Below are positions 1,141 through 25,468 of a DNA stretch of 36,676 nt, one piece after another. Under the pieces are notes generated by a model that saw only the letters and a program-made list of their open reading frames with translations, had not been told where the DNA came from and did not search any database. Source of the DNA: Tyzzerella sp. (GTDB taxonomy: Bacteria; Bacillota; Clostridia; Lachnospirales; Lachnospiraceae); the NCBI GenBank assembly GCA_017416155.1, contig JAFQDE010000010.1:65476-102151 (forward strand), given 5' to 3'. The position numbers and the translations under genes are program-made. Position 1 is the first letter of the stretch; every line of letters starts with the position of its first letter.

Positions 1141-1704
1141 ATGTTATTCAAATTATTTTATACATTTGCCAAAATCGGCCTCTTCACCTTTGGTGGCGGT
1201 TATGGCATGATTGCCATCGTGCAGGACGAATGTGTGGACAAAAAGAAATGGATTACAGACGATGAATTCGCAACCGTGCTTACCATCGCAGAATCCACAC
1301 CGGGACCAATCGCCATCAACTGCGCGACCTACACTGGATACGCACAGGGTGGAATCCTAGGTTCCATTGCTGCAACCTTCGGAGTGGTACTCCCATCCTT
1401 TGTGATTATTTATTTAATCTCATCTTTCTTCAACAACTTATTGGAAATTGAGATTGTTGCAAATGCTTTCAAAGGAATTCAAGTTGGTGTCGGCATCATC
1501 ATCCTTCGCGCCGGCTACAATTTATATAAAAAAATGGAGAAGAACGCATTTACCATTGCGATACTTATCGTCGCATGCTTGCTTATGTTGGCAATTAACT
1601 TCTTTGGCTGGAACTTTTCAACCATTTACATGCTTCTGATTGCAGGTGTGGTTGGTGCAATTTTCAGCCAGATTCAGAAAATCAAAGAAGGAAAGAAGGT
1701 GTAA
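1141..1704 (+). CDS. Chromate transporter family protein (short CHR), first of pair
   Basis: A 187-residue membrane protein of the short-chain CHR family. It has the amphipathic start followed by TFGGGYGMIAIVQDE, then DEFATVLTIAESTPGPIAINCATYTGY, the conserved CHR-domain core, and several hydrophobic segments up to a basic C terminus. Short CHR proteins occur as adjacent pairs that together make a transporter; the second half follows after 2 bases. The start at 1141 follows GAGAAAGGAA with good spacing; the frame is open further upstream to 1063 but without a suitable binding site. The family name comes from chromate efflux, but the physiological substrate here is not known. Confidence 0.85.
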   Translation: MLFKLFYTFAKIGLFTFGGGYGMIAIVQDECVDKKKWITDDEFATVLTIAESTPGPIAINCATYTGYAQGGILGSIAATFGVVLPSFVIIYLISSFFNNLLEIEIVANAFKGIQVGVGIIILRAGYNLYKKMEKNAFTIAILIVACLLMLAINFFGWNFSTIYMLLIAGVVGAIFSQIQKIKEGKKV

Positions 1705-1706
1705 GT

Positions 1707-2270
1707 TTGATTTACTTAGATTTGTTTTTAGGATTTTTAAAAGTCGGACTCTTCTCCTTCGGCGGTGCTTATGGTGCTATTCCCGTTATCCGAGAAGTGG
1801 TTATGGAAAACGGTTGGGTGGCGGAATCAAAATTCGCCTACCTATTAGCTATCAGTGAAAGTACACCAGGTCCGATTATGGTTAATACTGCCACTTATAT
1901 CGGAAATGAAGTAGGTGGAATTCTAGGTTCTGTACTTGCCACATTTACCGTTTGCCTGCCTGCATTTATTATCATCCTGGTTCTCTCTATGATACTGAAA
2001 AACTTCTTGAAGAGCCCTTATGTACAAGGAGTTTTGAACGGAATCAAACCATGTATTATCGGTATTATCTTGGCAACTGGTCTTCACATGATTATCGAAA
2101 ATGCGTTTGCTGAAGGCTTGAGTATACCAAAGAACTGGCAGTCATTTGTGATTATGGCAGTTATTATTATCGCAATGTTTATTTACAAAAAATTGAAAGA
2201 AAAAGCAATTTCTCCGATTATGCTGATTGCAGTTGCGGCTGTAAGTGGAATTGTTATATATGCGATTTAA
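1707..2270 (+). CDS. Chromate transporter family protein (short CHR), second of pair
   Basis: A second 187-residue CHR-domain protein, similar to its upstream partner. It shows SFGGAYGAIPVIREVV and FAYLLAISESTPGPIMVNTATYIGNEVGG, followed by five or so hydrophobic segments. It starts with TTG at 1707, two bases after the first gene stops, with AAGGTG just upstream, so the two are cotranslated and probably form a heteromeric transporter of opposite topology. A strong hairpin terminator follows at 2278. The substrate is not shown by the sequence. Confidence 0.85.
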   Translation: MIYLDLFLGFLKVGLFSFGGAYGAIPVIREVVMENGWVAESKFAYLLAISESTPGPIMVNTATYIGNEVGGILGSVLATFTVCLPAFIIILVLSMILKNFLKSPYVQGVLNGIKPCIIGIILATGLHMIIENAFAEGLSIPKNWQSFVIMAVIIIAMFIYKKLKEKAISPIMLIAVAAVSGIVIYAI

Positions 2271-2277
2271 TCAAACG

Positions 2278-2310
2278 GGGAGATAGCACATCGTAGATGT
2301 GCTATCTCCC
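2278..2310. terminator. Bidirectional terminator hairpin between convergent genes
   Basis: A perfect 15-base-pair stem (GGGAGATAGCACATC / GATGTGCTATCTCCC) with a GTA loop, followed on the plus strand by ATTCTTT. It separates the CHR pair from the convergent 2H phosphoesterase. Confidence 0.85.
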
Positions 2311-2315
2311 ATTCT

Positions 2316-2840
2316 TTACCTCAATTCCCACGTCGCAATGTCATGATGTGGGTTTGGTTTTGCAAGCCCTATTCTTACCACTTCACCTTCAAACATTCCA
2401 AAACTATTCTGCAGAACCTCGAACGCGGTCTGCATCTGCTCTTTTGTGAGTTTCTTTGCTATCGTCGTGTGAGGTAGCCATTGAAATGGTCGGTAGTATG
2501 GACTGATTTTAATCCCATTCGTATTCGAAAGTTCATCATTCACTATCGCAGAGATTTCATGCAAATACTCGTTCAGAACCGGAATTAAGAAAATCACATA
2601 CGGAAAAAACTGCCCAACCGAAGCCCACTCTAATGTACCTTGTCTTAATCTTGCCACCGCACGCTCAAGCGCATCAATTACAGCCTTCTCATTCTGCGTC
2701 TCAAATGCCGAAATCGTAATATGCGGTGGTACACTTCCATCCAACATAAAGGTATTTCCGGTGCACTCGGCCACTTTATCTATATATTGCTGAATCCTGC
2801 GATTCGTCTTTTCATCAAAATAAATAGATATCAAATACAT
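2316..2840 (-). CDS. 2H phosphoesterase (2'-5' RNA ligase family)
   Basis: A 174-residue protein of the 2H phosphoesterase superfamily. The two hallmark motifs are present: PPHITIS with His40 and LPHTTIA with His124, which together form the catalytic pair that acts on 2',3'-cyclic phosphates or 2'-5' linkages. The family includes LigT/ThpR and YjcG. Its ATG at 2840 overlaps the end of the upstream symporter gene by 10 bases, so it is translationally coupled. The natural substrate cannot be read from the sequence. Confidence 0.8.
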   Translation of the reverse strand: MYLISIYFDEKTNRRIQQYIDKVAECTGNTFMLDGSVPPHITISAFETQNEKAVIDALERAVARLRQGTLEWASVGQFFPYVIFLIPVLNEYLHEISAIVNDELSNTNGIKISPYYRPFQWLPHTTIAKKLTKEQMQTAFEVLQNSFGMFEGEVVRIGLAKPNPHHDIATWELR

Positions 2841-4279
2841 GTACTATCATCCACCCAAACAATTGCATCAACATTCTTGTACTTCTTCTTTAAAATTTTT
2901 CTGCGGAACAAATATATAGTATATGAAAGCCATAACACAAAGAAAATAGTACAAGCAATCACAGCATTCTTAGGAGAACCTGCCGCAAAGCTCAACAAAA
3001 ACAATAATGGTGCAATCATTACCATGGCAGGAAAATTGGAAAGAATGTATAAACTAGATGTAGGAGTCCGCAGACTCGGGTCAATCTCCTTCATCAGAAT
3101 CATTCCGTTTGATGCAGTCCCTGTCAGAGTACCGTAACACATCAGGAACATTTCATGTTCAAATCCTTTGAAACATTCTTTGGATACAAGACGGATGTAA
3201 ATATAAGTAATTACTGCACCTGTCACGCTAAGAATCAATACCGGTATAATATAATTCTTGATATCATTAATTTCGATAGCTGCTACACCTGCAACAATCA
3301 TCAAATCAAAAGAAAATCCTGATATACGATCCATCTGATAATTATTAATATACTCTCGATGCATCAGATTTTTCTTGCGCAACTGTTTCACGACCACTTT
3401 AATCAACATGGCAAATAAAGAAGCCCACAAGAAGTTAAAGCCCCATGCAATACTGTTTGTAAAGTCAGAAAGAATGCCCAGTAAATACATAAATCCAAAA
3501 GAAAGCGCATAGGACAAAGCCACAAAGCCTGCCTGAATCGTAAATTTATCTACCGATTCACTATCTGGAATCTCCTGTCCACTTGGATTAGTTAAATCAA
3601 TCGCATCGCCATCTATTCTGGCCTTGCGAACGTAAAGTTCCCCACGCGTTTTATAAATATTAATATACAACACTCCCAATACAGACGCCACAACGAAGCC
3701 TATCGATGCCAAAGATAATCCAAAACTGCCATTGCCCGCAAACTGTGCAGCCGGAGTATTTGTAAAATTAATATCCCAACTCAATGCATTACCCGGTCCT
3801 TGTCCATATGCCAACGGCAAAATCAAACCACAGATATACGAAATAACCTGATCCCCATGACGAGTCAATAGAAAAAGAACCAAGGTGATTCCAAGCCCCA
3901 CAAAAGCTTGCAGCATATAACATCCTCCCTGCAAGGCACCAAATTCCAGAACCTGAACCTTATTGGTCCTATGTGTACTTTTCTCTGTTTTTAAGGACAT
4001 GGATGCAAAACCAATAGCCAGGCAATGATATGTAATAACCTGCATGAGCCGATTATCAACTAGTACCAGCCCAAACTGTTTTGTAATCAAATTAACAATT
4101 AACAGAAGCGCCCCGCCCAACAGTGCAGATGGAATCAGACACTTTCTGAACAACGGAACTGTCCTTCCAAGAATATTTCCTAACATTAAAAATAAAAGCA
4201 ACAATCCTAGCTGAACCAAAAAGCCCCAAACTGCATCGTAATTTGCCATAGTAAAATCCCAACTGGATGCGTAATTCAT
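2831..4279 (-). CDS. Sodium/glutamate symporter-like membrane protein (GltS/ESS type)
   Basis: A 482-residue polytopic membrane protein with about eleven hydrophobic segments. The LILPLAYGQGPGNALSW stretch followed by GSFGLSLASIGFVVASVLG resembles the paired re-entrant regions of the GltS/ESS sodium:glutamate symporters, and GTLTGTASNGMILMKE near residue 400 is a plausible second discriminator region. It is longer than E. coli GltS (about 400 residues). The ATG at 4279 is chosen because AGGAGG lies 7 bases upstream; the frame extends to 4324 without such a signal. A TTGACG-N17-TATAAT promoter lies upstream. Family assignment is moderately sure; the substrate is inferred. Confidence 0.65.
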   Translation of the reverse strand: MNYASSWDFTMANYDAVWGFLVQLGLLLLFLMLGNILGRTVPLFRKCLIPSALLGGALLLIVNLITKQFGLVLVDNRLMQVITYHCLAIGFASMSLKTEKSTHRTNKVQVLEFGALQGGCYMLQAFVGLGITLVLFLLTRHGDQVISYICGLILPLAYGQGPGNALSWDINFTNTPAAQFAGNGSFGLSLASIGFVVASVLGVLYINIYKTRGELYVRKARIDGDAIDLTNPSGQEIPDSESVDKFTIQAGFVALSYALSFGFMYLLGILSDFTNSIAWGFNFLWASLFAMLIKVVVKQLRKKNLMHREYINNYQMDRISGFSFDLMIVAGVAAIEINDIKNYIIPVLILSVTGAVITYIYIRLVSKECFKGFEHEMFLMCYGTLTGTASNGMILMKEIDPSLRTPTSSLYILSNFPAMVMIAPLLFLLSFAAGSPKNAVIACTIFFVLWLSYTIYLFRRKILKKKYKNVDAIVWVDDSTCI

Positions 4280-21253: not shown

Positions 21254-22009
21254 CTAAACGTATCCATAAACACCTCGCACAGATACTTCTCCCGCATAAA
21301 TGCGTCTTTCTTCTCCCTCTTTCGTGTGAACCAAAAGTTCTCCCTCCGAGTTAATTCCCTGTGCGTAAGCTATATATTCATTTCCAGGTTCTAACACCCG
21401 TACCTCTTTACCGACATTGACCAACATGTCATTGTATGCTTCTTTTAGAAACGACAAATCCTGCGCCTCTAAAAACTGCCGATAGGATTGATCAAAATAT
21501 TTCGCAACTGATTCAATCAATCTTTCTCGGTCAAATATTATACCACTCTCTAGATAGAGGGATGTGGCAGTATCCTGTAGCTCCTTCGGGAAGCTGCTTG
21601 TGTTCACATTAATCCCTACTCCCACCACGACGTAATCCATCTCAGAATCTTTTAACTGCATCTCGGTCAGTATGCCACAGATTTTCTTGCCTGACAAAAC
21701 CAAATCATTCGGCCACTTAATCTGCACCTCTGAAAATCCCAATGCTTTTAAAGCTTCCCCCACACTGTATGCCATAACAAGTGTGAGCATCGGTGCTTTA
21801 TCCGGTACACAATTCGGTCTTAAAAGAATCGACATATAGATATTTTCTCCTGCCGGCGATTCCCACTGTCGTCCCCTTCGACCTTTTCCTGCAGTCTGCA
21901 ATTCCGCCACAACTACTGTACCATGCTCTGCCCCTTTTGTGGCGAGTCTTGCAAGCTCCGTATTGGTTGAATCTATTTGTTTGTAATAAATAATCTTTTT
22001 ATTCTCCAA
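21254..22009 (-). CDS. birA: Biotin--[acetyl-CoA-carboxylase] ligase (monofunctional)
   Basis: A 251-residue biotin protein ligase that attaches biotin to carboxylase carrier proteins. The biotin/ATP loop GKGRRGRQW (41-49), KWPNDL (98-103) and GVGINVN motifs are intact. There is no N-terminal helix-turn-helix, so it should not act as a transcriptional repressor (group I ligase). The start is a TTG at 22009 inside the end of the carbamoyltransferase frame (11-base overlap), followed by [13 protein letters not shown], the usual first strand. It is coupled to the patatin-OTC gene upstream. Confidence 0.92.
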
Positions 22010-24035
22010 GTGTAGCCACCATTACTGCCTTAATTGTATGAAGACGATTCTCCGCCTCATTAAATACAACATCCGCATGTTTTTCAAATACATCTTCTGT
22101 CACTTCGTTACCCTTTACTGCCGGTAGACAGTGCATAAAGATTGTTTCTGCCTTTCCTGTCTTATCCATCAGTGCCTGGTTAATCTGATATGGGTGTAAG
22201 AGTGCAATACGCTCTACTGTCTTGTCTTCCTCTCCCATTGAACACCAGACATCTGTATAAAGAACATCTGCTCCTTCTACAGCATCAACAGAATCTGTAA
22301 TTGTAACCGTTGCACCGGATTCCTTCGCATAGTTTTTACAAAGTTCTACAAGTCCCTCCTCTGGCCATAAGGCTTTCGGAGCAATAATTGCGAAATTTAC
22401 ACCAACCTTTGCACAGCCAATCATAAGACTGTTCGCCATGTTATTGCGGCCATCTCCAAGGTATACGAAATTCAAACCTTCCAAATATCCAAAATGTTCC
22501 TTCATAGTCAGAAAATCTGCAAGAATTTGGGTCGGATGATAGTCATCCGTAAGTCCATTCCAAACAGGGACACCACTATACTCTGCCAATATCTCTACAT
22601 GCTCATGCTTGAATCCACGGAATTCAATTCCATCAAACATTCTCCCAAGTACACGTGCCGTATCCTTGACACTCTCTTTATATCCCAACTGAATGTCATG
22701 TTGAGAAAGATATGTCGGAAATGCCCCCTCATCATTTGCACCAACCGTAAATGCACAGCGTGTTCTGGTAGATGGCTTTTCAAAAATCAGTGCAATATTT
22801 TTACCCTTCAAAGAATTGCCGGTAATTCCCTGCTTTTTCTTCGCTTTTAGGTCTGCCGCCAAATCAAGCAAATACAGTATCTCGTCTTTCGTAAAATCTT
22901 TGAGTGTCAAAAAATTACGTCCCTTTAAGTTCATCTCGTAGTCCTTTCTGAGATTCATCAGAATATGAACGAATCTCGGTAAATCTATTGTGTCTCTTTC
23001 TTTTTGATATTTTTCTCTTACTGCCTGCTCCAACTCTTGAATCGTATAGATTCGATACTTCGGGATGTGCAGAAGCTTTGCACTCGCCTCAAGCATGGCA
23101 AGATAGAATTCTTCGTCAGAACATTTTCGTGATAAACGCAAAATAAATGTAATCTCTGCCTTCTCGATATCACTCAAACCTTCCAGTATCTCTCTATAAT
23201 ACCATTCTTCGCGCGTTTGTTCAATATAATAAATTCGACCTGCAAGGCCATAAATCATACGTTTTGCATCAAAATATCCTATTTTTAAGTTCTGTCTGCT
23301 TCTTTTGCTCTGAAATTCAATAATACTTCCCAATTTTACTTTTGGCGCAATCTCATAGAGAGTTGTATCTTCATCCGCCTTCACTCTCGGTACTCTTCCC
23401 GGTCCGTAAATACGAATCTGAATAATATCTTTGTATCCTCTCTCAAGCAGGGAGTTAATTGGAAAGTTGTTCACAATCCCGCCATCTACATAGGTTTGCC
23501 CATGTAATTTCTCTTTTTTAAATCCAAAGAGATACGCACTTGCAAGGAGAAAATCTTCCAAAAGCCCCTCCGGAATATCGTGGATGCTGAGGTCCATTTC
23601 CTTCATCTGAGAAACCGAAAAAGTAAGAAGACATAATTCTATTCCACACTCCCGAATCTTCTTCTCATCCACATGCTCATGAATCAAGTTGCGCAGAGGC
23701 GCGATATCCACACCGCCATCTGACAATATCTTTCGGAATTCACTGACAATCTCACGTAAGCCGTTTTCTTTGTTAAAGAGACGTTCCATCCATTCATCAT
23801 CCACGTCCATGACATCGGAAAATGTCATGTCATACCATATCTCTTCCGCTTTTTGGGGGTCACCCATACAAATAAGGGCCCCATTCAAAGCACCCACAGA
23901 GGTTCCTGCAACTGCATTCACTTTTACCCCCGCTTCACACAGTGCTTTCCACGCACCTATCTGATATGCTCCCCTAGCGCCACCGCCATCTAGCACAAGA
24001 CCATATTCTTTTGTCAAATCAATTATCGGATTCAT
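21999..24035 (-). CDS. Fused patatin-like phospholipase / ornithine carbamoyltransferase
   Basis: One open frame of 678 residues with two complete enzymes. Residues 1-290 are a patatin-like lipid hydrolase: oxyanion loop DGGGARG (16-22), nucleophile Ser46 in GTSVG, catalytic Asp184 in DGG. Residues 291-367 are a helical extension. Residues 368-678 (311 residues) are a full ornithine carbamoyltransferase (argF type), with STRTR (422-426) for carbamoyl phosphate, HPTQ (500-503), SMGEE near 599 for ornithine, and HCLPA (635-639). An AAAGGA site lies 7 bases before Met368, so the second enzyme may also be made alone. The codon two before Met368 is TAC, one base from a stop. GAGGTG precedes the first ATG. 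The fusion in the sequence is certain; its biological reality is not. Confidence 0.85.
22932..22947 (-). promoter_or_regulatory. argF: Internal ribosome binding site and ATG for the carbamoyltransferase part
   Basis: AAAGGA (22947-22942), a 7-base spacer and ATG (22934-22932). The frame from here encodes exactly one ornithine carbamoyltransferase of normal length, beginning [14 protein letters not shown]. This would be the ordinary start of argF if the upstream frame had a stop. Confidence 0.7.
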
Positions 24036-24110: not shown

Positions 24111-25031
24111 TTAATCTTCTTTTGCAACTTCCACAACAGATTTTGCAAGCCCTGCAATCCCCTGAAGTTCTGACGGAATAATAATCTTAGTAGCCTTTCC
24201 GTCTGCAGCACGTTCAAATGCCTCCAAACTCTTAATGGTAAGTACTGCCTGGTCTGCTCCTGCTTCCTTGAGGAATCGAATACCATCTGCATTTGCCTGT
24301 TGTACTTTAAGAATAGCTTCTGCTTCACCTTCTGCTTCTTTGATGCGTCTTTCTTTTTCAGCTTCTGCACGGAGAATTGCAGATTGCTTCTCAGCTTCCG
24401 CTTCGAGAATCACAGATTCCTTGTTACCTTCTGCGACAAGAATCGTAGATTTCTTTTCTCCTTCTGCGCGAAGAATAGCTTCACGACGTTCACGTTCTGC
24501 CTTCATCTGTTTTTCCATGGCATCTTGAATCGCTGCTGGTGGAATAATATTCTTAAGCTCTACACGATTTACCTTGATTCCCCATGGGTCTGTTGCCACA
24601 TCGAGAGATGCTCTCATCTTCGTGTTAATTGTTTCTCTTGATGTTAATGTCTGGTCTAATTCCAAATCACCGATAATGTTACGAAGTGTTGTCGCTGTCA
24701 AGTTCTCAATCGCCATAATCGGATTGGCAACTCCATAGCAGAATAACTTCGGATCTGTAATCTGATAGAATACAACCGTGTCAATCCGCATCGTAACGTT
24801 ATCCTTTGTAATAACCGGTTGTGGCGCAAAATCTACAACCTGTTCTTTGAGATCTACACGTCTTGCAACACGCTCAAGAATCGGAATTTTAAAATGGATA
24901 CCTACTCCCCATGTTGCCTGATAAGCACCTAATCTCTCAACAACGAGGGCCTGCGCCTGTTGAACCACTTTTACACAAGATACTAAAACTATTACTACAA
25001 TCACTGCCAAAATAATTCCAACTAATCTCAT
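24111..25031 (-). CDS. SPFH/Band 7 (stomatin-like) membrane protein
   Basis: A 306-residue protein with one N-terminal membrane helix (residues 3-20), an SPFH domain (about 25-190: VVERLGAYQATWGVGIHFKIP, then DNVTMRIDTVVFYQITDP) and a long coiled coil (about 190-260) made of repeated IL-xAE-xEK units. It resembles stomatin/QmcA proteins that form large oligomeric rings on membranes. It starts 2 bases after nfeD ends, the standard NfeD-SPFH pairing. Role is inferred as membrane domain organisation or protease regulation. Confidence 0.9.
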   Translation of the reverse strand: MRLVGIILAVIVVIVLVSCVKVVQQAQALVVERLGAYQATWGVGIHFKIPILERVARRVDLKEQVVDFAPQPVITKDNVTMRIDTVVFYQITDPKLFCYGVANPIMAIENLTATTLRNIIGDLELDQTLTSRETINTKMRASLDVATDPWGIKVNRVELKNIIPPAAIQDAMEKQMKAERERREAILRAEGEKKSTILVAEGNKESVILEAEAEKQSAILRAEAEKERRIKEAEGEAEAILKVQQANADGIRFLKEAGADQAVLTIKSLEAFERAADGKATKIIIPSELQGIAGLAKSVVEVAKED

Positions 25032-25033
25032 TT

Positions 25034-25468
25034 TTATACCTCCTGTTTTTTCACAATTAATTTTACGCCCTGTATACCTTCGATGATGACTACTTCACCT
25101 GCTTCAATAATCATATCTGCGTCATCCGTCTTGGCAGACCATTCCATTCCATTTACCTCTGCACGGCCAACTCCATGCAATGTGTCAATTGTCTCTAAGA
25201 CCACTGCATTTTGTCCAATCAGACTTTCCGCATTTGTTTTCTGACGTTCCTGATTGAAAAACTTCATCGCAATCGGTCTTGTGAGAACCAAAAGAGCGAT
25301 TGACACCAATAAGAAAACAATAATCTGAACCGGAAGTCCAAATCCAACATATGCAAGAACAAATGCTACAATAGCTCCGCCTGCAAACCATATCGTTGTC
25401 AATCCCATGGTAAGAATCTCAATCACTAATAAGACTGCAAACATAATTAACCAAAACATTGTTTCCAT
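25034..25468 (-). CDS. NfeD family membrane protein
   Basis: A 144-residue NfeD: three to four membrane helices (FWLIMFAVLLVIEILTMGL at the start, then two more by residue 63) and a C-terminal OB-fold domain (about 82-144, with IGQNAVVLETI and GRAEVNGMEWSAK). NfeD proteins partner with the SPFH protein encoded immediately downstream. GAGGCGG precedes the ATG, and a TTGCAA-N17-TAGAAT promoter lies upstream. Confidence 0.92.
   Translation of the reverse strand: METMFWLIMFAVLLVIEILTMGLTTIWFAGGAIVAFVLAYVGFGLPVQIIVFLLVSIALLVLTRPIAMKFFNQERQKTNAESLIGQNAVVLETIDTLHGVGRAEVNGMEWSAKTDDADMIIEAGEVVIIEGIQGVKLIVKKQEV

Follow-up and report, generated by a model that had tools for sequence, protein, structure and literature searches.

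The window, by which we mean the whole 36,676-nucleotide stretch of DNA analyzed here, carries on its minus strand a single reading frame in which a patatin-like protein continues directly into an ornithine carbamoyltransferase (OTC). Translation from 24035 to 21999 gives 678 residues with no internal stop, and the joint between the two halves is open, which confirms the join described in a first-pass annotation of this DNA. The frame, its internal features and the genes on either side are as follows.

21999..24035, minus strand: fused patatin-OTC open reading frame (ORF), 678 residues, a patatin-like protein in frame with OTC, from translation and Pfam matches
22935..24035, minus strand: patatin-like half, residues 1–367; Ser46 (of GTSVG) and Asp184 (of DGG) do not vary among the aligned fusions
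21999..22934 (stop included), minus strand: OTC half, residues 368–678, equal to the 311-residue product of the internal start, from TIGR00658 and motifs
22942..22947, minus strand: AAAGGA, a Shine-Dalgarno-like (SD-like) site inside the patatin 3′ end, with an aligned purine-rich site in the fused genes
22938..22940, minus strand: TAC codon, the one freely varying codon at which a stop might often occur; the unfused locus L137 has TAG here
22932..22934, minus strand: internal ATG of the OTC; ATG in 30 and GTG in 1 of 31 representative fused genes
24111..25031, minus strand: SPFH/Band 7 protein, upstream (PF01145)
25034..25468, minus strand: NfeD-like protein, upstream (PF01957)
21254..22009, minus strand: biotin-protein ligase without a DNA-binding domain, downstream (PF03099, PF16917 and PF02237; no helix-turn-helix family in Pfam)

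The Pfam Patatin family matches residues 13–196 at 111.4 bits, against a cut-off of 27.7. The Ser-Asp dyad in GxSxG and DG[GA], which we take to be the patatin active-site motif, is in place, with GTSVG present in all 37 fused ORFs described below and D184, G185 and G186 (the DGG at 184–186) invariant in 32/32 aligned rows. With the cut-off of PF01734 passed and the dyad motifs present, the first half is assigned to the patatin-like phospholipase family, and a lipid acyl hydrolase activity is predicted for it. In the second half, OTCace_N matches residues 373–513 and OTCace residues 519–674, both above their cut-offs, and the NCBIfam equivalog model TIGR00658 matches residues 373–676 at 434.3 bits (cut-off 280.85), which places this half among the OTCs; the corresponding enzyme activity is predicted. 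The motifs STRTR, HPTQ and HCLPA are present in 37/37 fused ORFs, and STRTR, HPTQ and HCLP are presumably those of the carbamoyl phosphate and ornithine sites. These domain scores, together with active-site motifs intact in 37/37 ORFs, agree with the earlier description of both enzymes as complete, and the positions it had given for AAAGGA, the TAC codon and the internal ATG are exact in the sequence. The window's genome, which is 84% complete, holds one patatin match and two OTCace_N matches; the second OTCace_N protein scores 139.4 bits on TIGR00658, under the cut-off, as an aspartate carbamoyltransferase would.

The biotin-protein ligase of the window begins at a TTG that lies inside the end of the OTC frame. 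By eye, the biotin ligases of two other genomes, G006 and G024, appear to have a DNA-binding domain. Genes for NfeD, SPFH, patatin, OTC, BirA, DUF6145, CoaX and Dus recur, with varying completeness, in both fused and unfused loci. The loci L089 (genome G001) and L004 showed no BirA between the fusion and DUF6145, and L089 showed no CoaX either. Accessible portions of the literature, searched for operons of SPFH, NfeD and patatin genes and for fused genes that have an internal start, offered no usable precedent for a patatin-OTC gene.

The same open joint occurs in 37 distinct patatin-OTC ORFs, the window's included, with lengths of 678–705 residues; the count was made after removal of identical copies, and a frame kept in so many distinct ORFs is beyond chance. 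Twenty-seven whole genomes from 18 genus codes carry the fused frame, a count that overlaps with that of the ORFs, and three of these genomes are single contigs (G110, G347 and G256). The genome scan kept 80 of 219 confirmed stretches. At 48 of these 80 loci there is no patatin in the fetched stretch, some stretches being short; of the 32 loci with a patatin, 19 have an in-frame join without a stop, 12 have separate genes and one (L027) is open to the contig end. Fused loci include those of Dorea sp. D27, Lachnospiraceae CE91-St61 (complete genome, AP025573.1) and Sporofaciens musculi, and separate genes are found in Lacrimispora, Hungatella and L. phytofermentans, among others. Within the window's genus, 8 of the 10 genomes searched (its own among them) are fused, G006 has a stop and G003 has no OTC.

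A sample of the family Lachnospiraceae yields a patatin match at E ≤ 1e-20 in 94 of 397 genomes. Of the 23 closest patatins of this sample, defined as matches that reach query residue 359 or beyond at 59% identity or more, 20 lie in patatin-OTC frames, that of G003 lies in a patatin-BirA frame, and those of G014 and G102 are unfused. The fused state is found in 27 of the 29 clade genomes that have an OTC beside the patatin, which suggests at least good tolerance of the fusion. A class-wide survey of 391 Clostridia genomes, scoring at most three candidates per genome, gave no other patatin-OTC frame among the matches listed, and of 641 matching plasmid records none held 80% of the query in one place. 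Two long frames in this survey, from G471 and G497, each resolved into an argD and an argF gene that share a frame but are parted by a stop. On this sequence comparison, the patatin-OTC join is old and common to many genera of Lachnospiraceae. The window's genome is a draft of 56 contigs and 84% completeness, which leaves room for a sequencing or binning artefact, but that reading has practically no chance of being right: it is refuted by the joint in independent records, namely the complete genome AP025573.1, Dorea sp. D27, Sporofaciens musculi and the single-contig genomes G110, G347 and G256.

Comparison of the locus across relatives for a stop ahead of the internal ATG, a check proposed in the first-pass annotation, bears also on how the frame arose. 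In the unfused locus L137 (G102), TAG stands exactly at the window's TAC codon and the patatin and OTC genes are separate; in L091 (G006), an out-of-frame TAA ends one base before the ATG. The first-pass annotation had put forward a recent stop loss at the TAC codon as an equally good explanation of the open frame. In view of the TAG of L137 the choice of codon was a good one, but the stop disappeared in an ancestor of many genera, so that neither "recent" nor the equal standing of this explanation is upheld, and the same joint in independent records rules out a recent event.

Phylogeny of the patatin half places all fused rows (37 patatin-OTC, L027 and the BirA fusion L092) in one clade of a 61-row tree, with support of 100/100. 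This clade, the base of which is poorly resolved, also takes in three unfused rows: L094, from which the OTC is gone, nests beside the fused L126 (support 99/87), and the placement of L091 and L137 within the clade is poorly resolved. Tree building left out identical proteins as well as L115, which duplicates the window's gene. On a 50-row tree of OTC-bearing rows, without eight distant unfused ones (L022, L023, L026, L046, L049, L051, L059 and L068), the fused state needs two changes. A single fused clade on this tree is not rejected (p-AU 0.36), a value above 0.05 being no proof of a single origin, and only 6% of bootstrap trees get by with one change. In the outgroup loci, patatin and OTC genes are adjacent and separate. 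The ribosome site for the OTC falls, in fused genes, within the end of the patatin coding sequence. We envisage an ancestral operon in a Lachnospiraceae subclade, in which a patatin-like gene was followed directly by the OTC gene and the OTC ribosome site lay in the patatin 3′ end; the patatin stop between this site and the OTC ATG would then have been lost, once as far as the data tell, to give one frame. In L148 (1700–3856, minus strand) and L149 (457–2583, plus strand), argD-like and OTC genes (argD identified by eye) abut in one frame and are separated by a stop; the patatin-OTC fusion may have passed through a similar state.

For analysis of the internal start, the 37 ORFs were thinned at 93% identity to 31 representatives, six fused ORFs more than 93% identical to another being dropped. 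The peak of synonymous constraint in these 31 genes lies at the internal start: ranked by their excess of codon identity, the top 15 five-codon windows, an overlapping set, begin without exception at residues 357–375. The first Leu after the internal ATG is encoded by TTA in 30/31 genes, whereas TTA makes up 12% of the Leu codons in the same genes, and the Gly that follows the ATG is GGA in 31/31. Among 56 invariant Leu or Gly columns, 370 and 372 are the most codon-uniform (0.97 and 1.00), the next reaching 0.74. At the same positions of 21 unfused OTC genes, which are more divergent, the Leu is TTA in 16 and the Gly GGA in 18; some of the codon conservation downstream of the internal ATG could be inherited from the time when the OTC gene stood alone. 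Residues 363–367 vary in amino acid, with 363–365 still purine-rich.

SD-like pairing at the internal starts has a mean dG of −7.6 over the 31 genes, compared with −3.3 for 676 other in-frame ATGs, 12.9% of which reach the median pairing of the internal starts. Pairing is stronger still at the 21 unfused OTC starts (−9.7), and stands at −8.5 at the patatin starts. RNA around the internal ATG falls in the least structured 10% of the ORF in 25/31 genes. The window's own copy is less distinctive. Its SD-like site is modest (dG −5.6), with 28.5% of synonymous recodings as good, and its RNA openness is ordinary, 31% of windows being as open; across the set, the site lies at or below the 5% mark of synonymous recodings in only 5/31 genes. 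As a group, the fused genes thus show the constraint peak, SD-like pairing and low structure of an internal in-frame start, although neither the recoding test nor the openness test reaches significance for the window's copy by itself.

Considered together, these comparisons indicate that the internal start region is under constraint and that the start has been preserved. With its inner OTC start kept, the gene probably makes two proteins, and the two products that the first-pass annotation had proposed, a 678-residue fusion and a 311-residue OTC, gain support from this comparative evidence. The opposite reading, in which the internal start is dead and the long chain carries all OTC activity, would be in keeping with the complete open frame and with the modest site of the window. 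We consider it very unlikely, however, given that the strongest synonymous constraint of the whole ORF sits at the internal start and that the RNA there is unusually open in 25/31 genes.

The OTC encoded behind the patatin is of two types. Seventeen of the 37 fused ORFs have an OTC of 311–314 residues like the window's, and 20 have a type of 328–333 residues that is ∼55%–60% identical to it. On the 50-row patatin tree, OTC type needs at least seven changes, and well-supported branches force four of these; if only the 37 fused rows are counted, it needs four, of which one is forced. Between close patatins with different OTC types, identity falls only after about residue 395, so the edge of the exchange may lie inside the OTC start region, or this region may simply be conserved. 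At L011–L018, L024, L117 and other loci, the OTC switches at the locus between the two types, and a switch is also seen among the unfused outgroups L140, L143 and L144, a repeated in-place replacement of a core enzyme.

In L092 (G003), positions 1501–3384 encode a patatin in frame with a biotin-protein ligase, 627 residues from the patatin Met, and by eye this ligase has no DNA-binding domain. In the genome of G003, where BirA has taken the place of the OTC, neither OTC nor argH is found above cut-off. In L094 (G014), there is no OTC between patatin and BirA and none above cut-off elsewhere, and argH is kept; either the arginine pathway lacks a step here or the assembly has a gap.

The fused OTC is the only one above the TIGR00658 cut-off in 26 of the 27 fused genomes. 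The remaining genome, G270, has a second, separate OTC beside an arginine deiminase gene; G129 has a partial OTC match of 158 bits, under the cut-off. A second OTC that could make the fused one dispensable was therefore found above cut-off in one of the 27 genomes; eight of these are only 65%–88% complete, so that a second gene could have been missed there. argH is above its cut-off in 27/27 fused genomes and arginine deiminase in 1/27 (G270), and the window's genome, at 84% completeness, has no match to arcA. An assignment as the catabolic OTC (ArcB) of the arginine deiminase pathway was rejected on the distribution of arginine deiminase. With a sole OTC in 26/27 genomes, argH in 27/27 and arginine deiminase in 1/27, the fused OTC most likely serves arginine synthesis.

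The reading that best accommodates these data is a gene with two outputs, and we think it probable that both are made: initiation at the first ATG would yield the long patatin-OTC chain, and initiation at the internal ATG a free OTC. OTC is a trimer. Chains of both lengths would be expected to co-assemble into the usual trimer, so that patatin arms would sit on part of the OTC in the cell, and the OTC of the fused gene would serve arginine synthesis. That both proteins are made and mix is what we infer from an open frame that is observed directly, as are its conservation, the sole-OTC status and the constraint at the start region. Two rival readings of what the long form is used for are nested within the two-output gene, and their likelihoods are not to be added to its own.

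The first, to which we give a little less than an even chance, is that stop loss has simply been tolerated. Nearly all useful OTC would come from the internal start, and the long chain would be a harmless patatin with an OTC tail; the open frame would persist because a stop at almost any position would damage the end of the patatin or the ribosome site. The codons of the SD-like site hold no T in their first place, and codon −2 alone has much freedom to turn into a stop. The base make-up of codon −2 predicts 0.081 stops per gene, or ∼2.5 in 31; the fused set has none by definition, L137, the one clade member with a stop (TAG) at codon −2, being counted as unfused. With a single codon much at liberty, the missing stops have little power as a test of selection for an open frame. 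Tolerance is also consistent with residues 363–367, which vary in amino acid while 363–365 keep their purines, with a partner that is not fixed (OTC of two types, BirA in G003) and with a fusion that is neither permanent nor universal in the clade (L094, L091 and L137). Against it stand the 27/29 clade genomes that are fused where OTC lies beside patatin, and the 50-row tree, which requires 7 changes of OTC type but 2 of the fused state.

The second reading, which we regard as unlikely, is that the long chain is a selected bifunctional enzyme. Its patatin part would dock OTC at the membrane near the SPFH and NfeD proteins, and citrulline synthesis would be tied to membrane lipid turnover, or carbamoyl phosphate would be channelled. 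Such a role is consistent with a fusion long conserved and intact at both active sites, with the adjacency of patatin and OTC also in unfused outgroups, and with the SPFH and NfeD genes upstream in the window. However, an SPFH relative lies directly upstream in only 17/37 fused loci, and in 18/21 unfused loci with OTC (counted by eye), and the partner half is swapped; with OTC exchanged or replaced by BirA, tolerance fits as well as a specific partnership. An AlphaFold2 model based on 32 aligned fusions (mean pLDDT 83.8, pTM 0.55) predicts two folded domains with a loose joint (pLDDT ∼66 at residues 361–370) and no confident docking of one on the other. The link between arginine synthesis and lipid hydrolysis at the membrane that the first-pass annotation had suggested is accordingly not borne out by a confident placement of the domains. 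More specific, and more doubtful still, is the idea that patatin-bearing subunits seed OTC trimers at the membrane, with the ratio of translation from the first and internal starts setting the membrane-docked share of arginine synthesis and the long chain under selection.

In at least 18 genera of Lachnospiraceae, an unrelated lipase precedes a core biosynthetic enzyme in a single frame, and for 26 of 27 carriers this enzyme is the only OTC above cut-off. The locus offers a natural test of how operon neighbors turn into fused proteins, with several stages on view: adjacency without fusion in the outgroups, a ribosome site inside the upstream gene, a lost stop, and a partner swapped with the joint intact. 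Automatic annotation may name the fused gene for one enzyme or the other, in which case gene counts for both could be misread.

The closest known arrangement is that of the separate patatin-like and argF genes of Lacrimispora celerecrescens, Hungatella hathewayi and Lachnoclostridium phytofermentans, which are homologous to the fusion (patatin 44%–47% and OTC 75%–79% identical) and stand in the same gene order. In these three species, in contrast, a stop and a spacer lie between the genes and there is no shared-frame product. The OTC half matches the Thermotoga OTC (PDB 1vlv) over its whole length, at 55% identity and a TM-score of 0.94 by target length, and the anabolic Vibrio enzyme (PDB 4jhx) is another known OTC that it matches. 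Unlike the fusion, the OTC chains among the best 60 of 89 sequences are single enzymes of 301–365 residues. For the patatin half, a sequence search at E ≤ 0.001 gave a single solved patatin, PlpD (PDB 5fqu), which matches over residues 10–214 (E 7.5e-13). PlpD, according to the part of its description that was available, is an outer-membrane protein of the Omp85 kind, whereas the fusion has no match to such a domain in Pfam and has a C-terminal OTC instead.

In CAD and other fused carbamoyltransferases, the carbamoyltransferase domain sits within a larger chain, and a CAD chain is among the best 60 of those 89 sequences. CAD, however, joins enzymes of one pathway, whereas here a lipase is joined to an arginine enzyme, and we know of no place for patatin in arginine synthesis. 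Our search for earlier accounts of a fused patatin and OTC, which covered accessible portions of the open literature, found none. Two starts in one frame are known from other bacterial genes. ClpB, AerR and SpaO, in the portions of the published accounts available, each give a long and a short protein from one frame by way of an internal start, as proposed for the patatin-OTC gene, and the short form is in each case a shortened version of the same protein. CheA and IF2 presumably do likewise, with an internal in-frame start and a long and a short product. In the patatin-OTC gene, by contrast, the short form would be a whole second enzyme.
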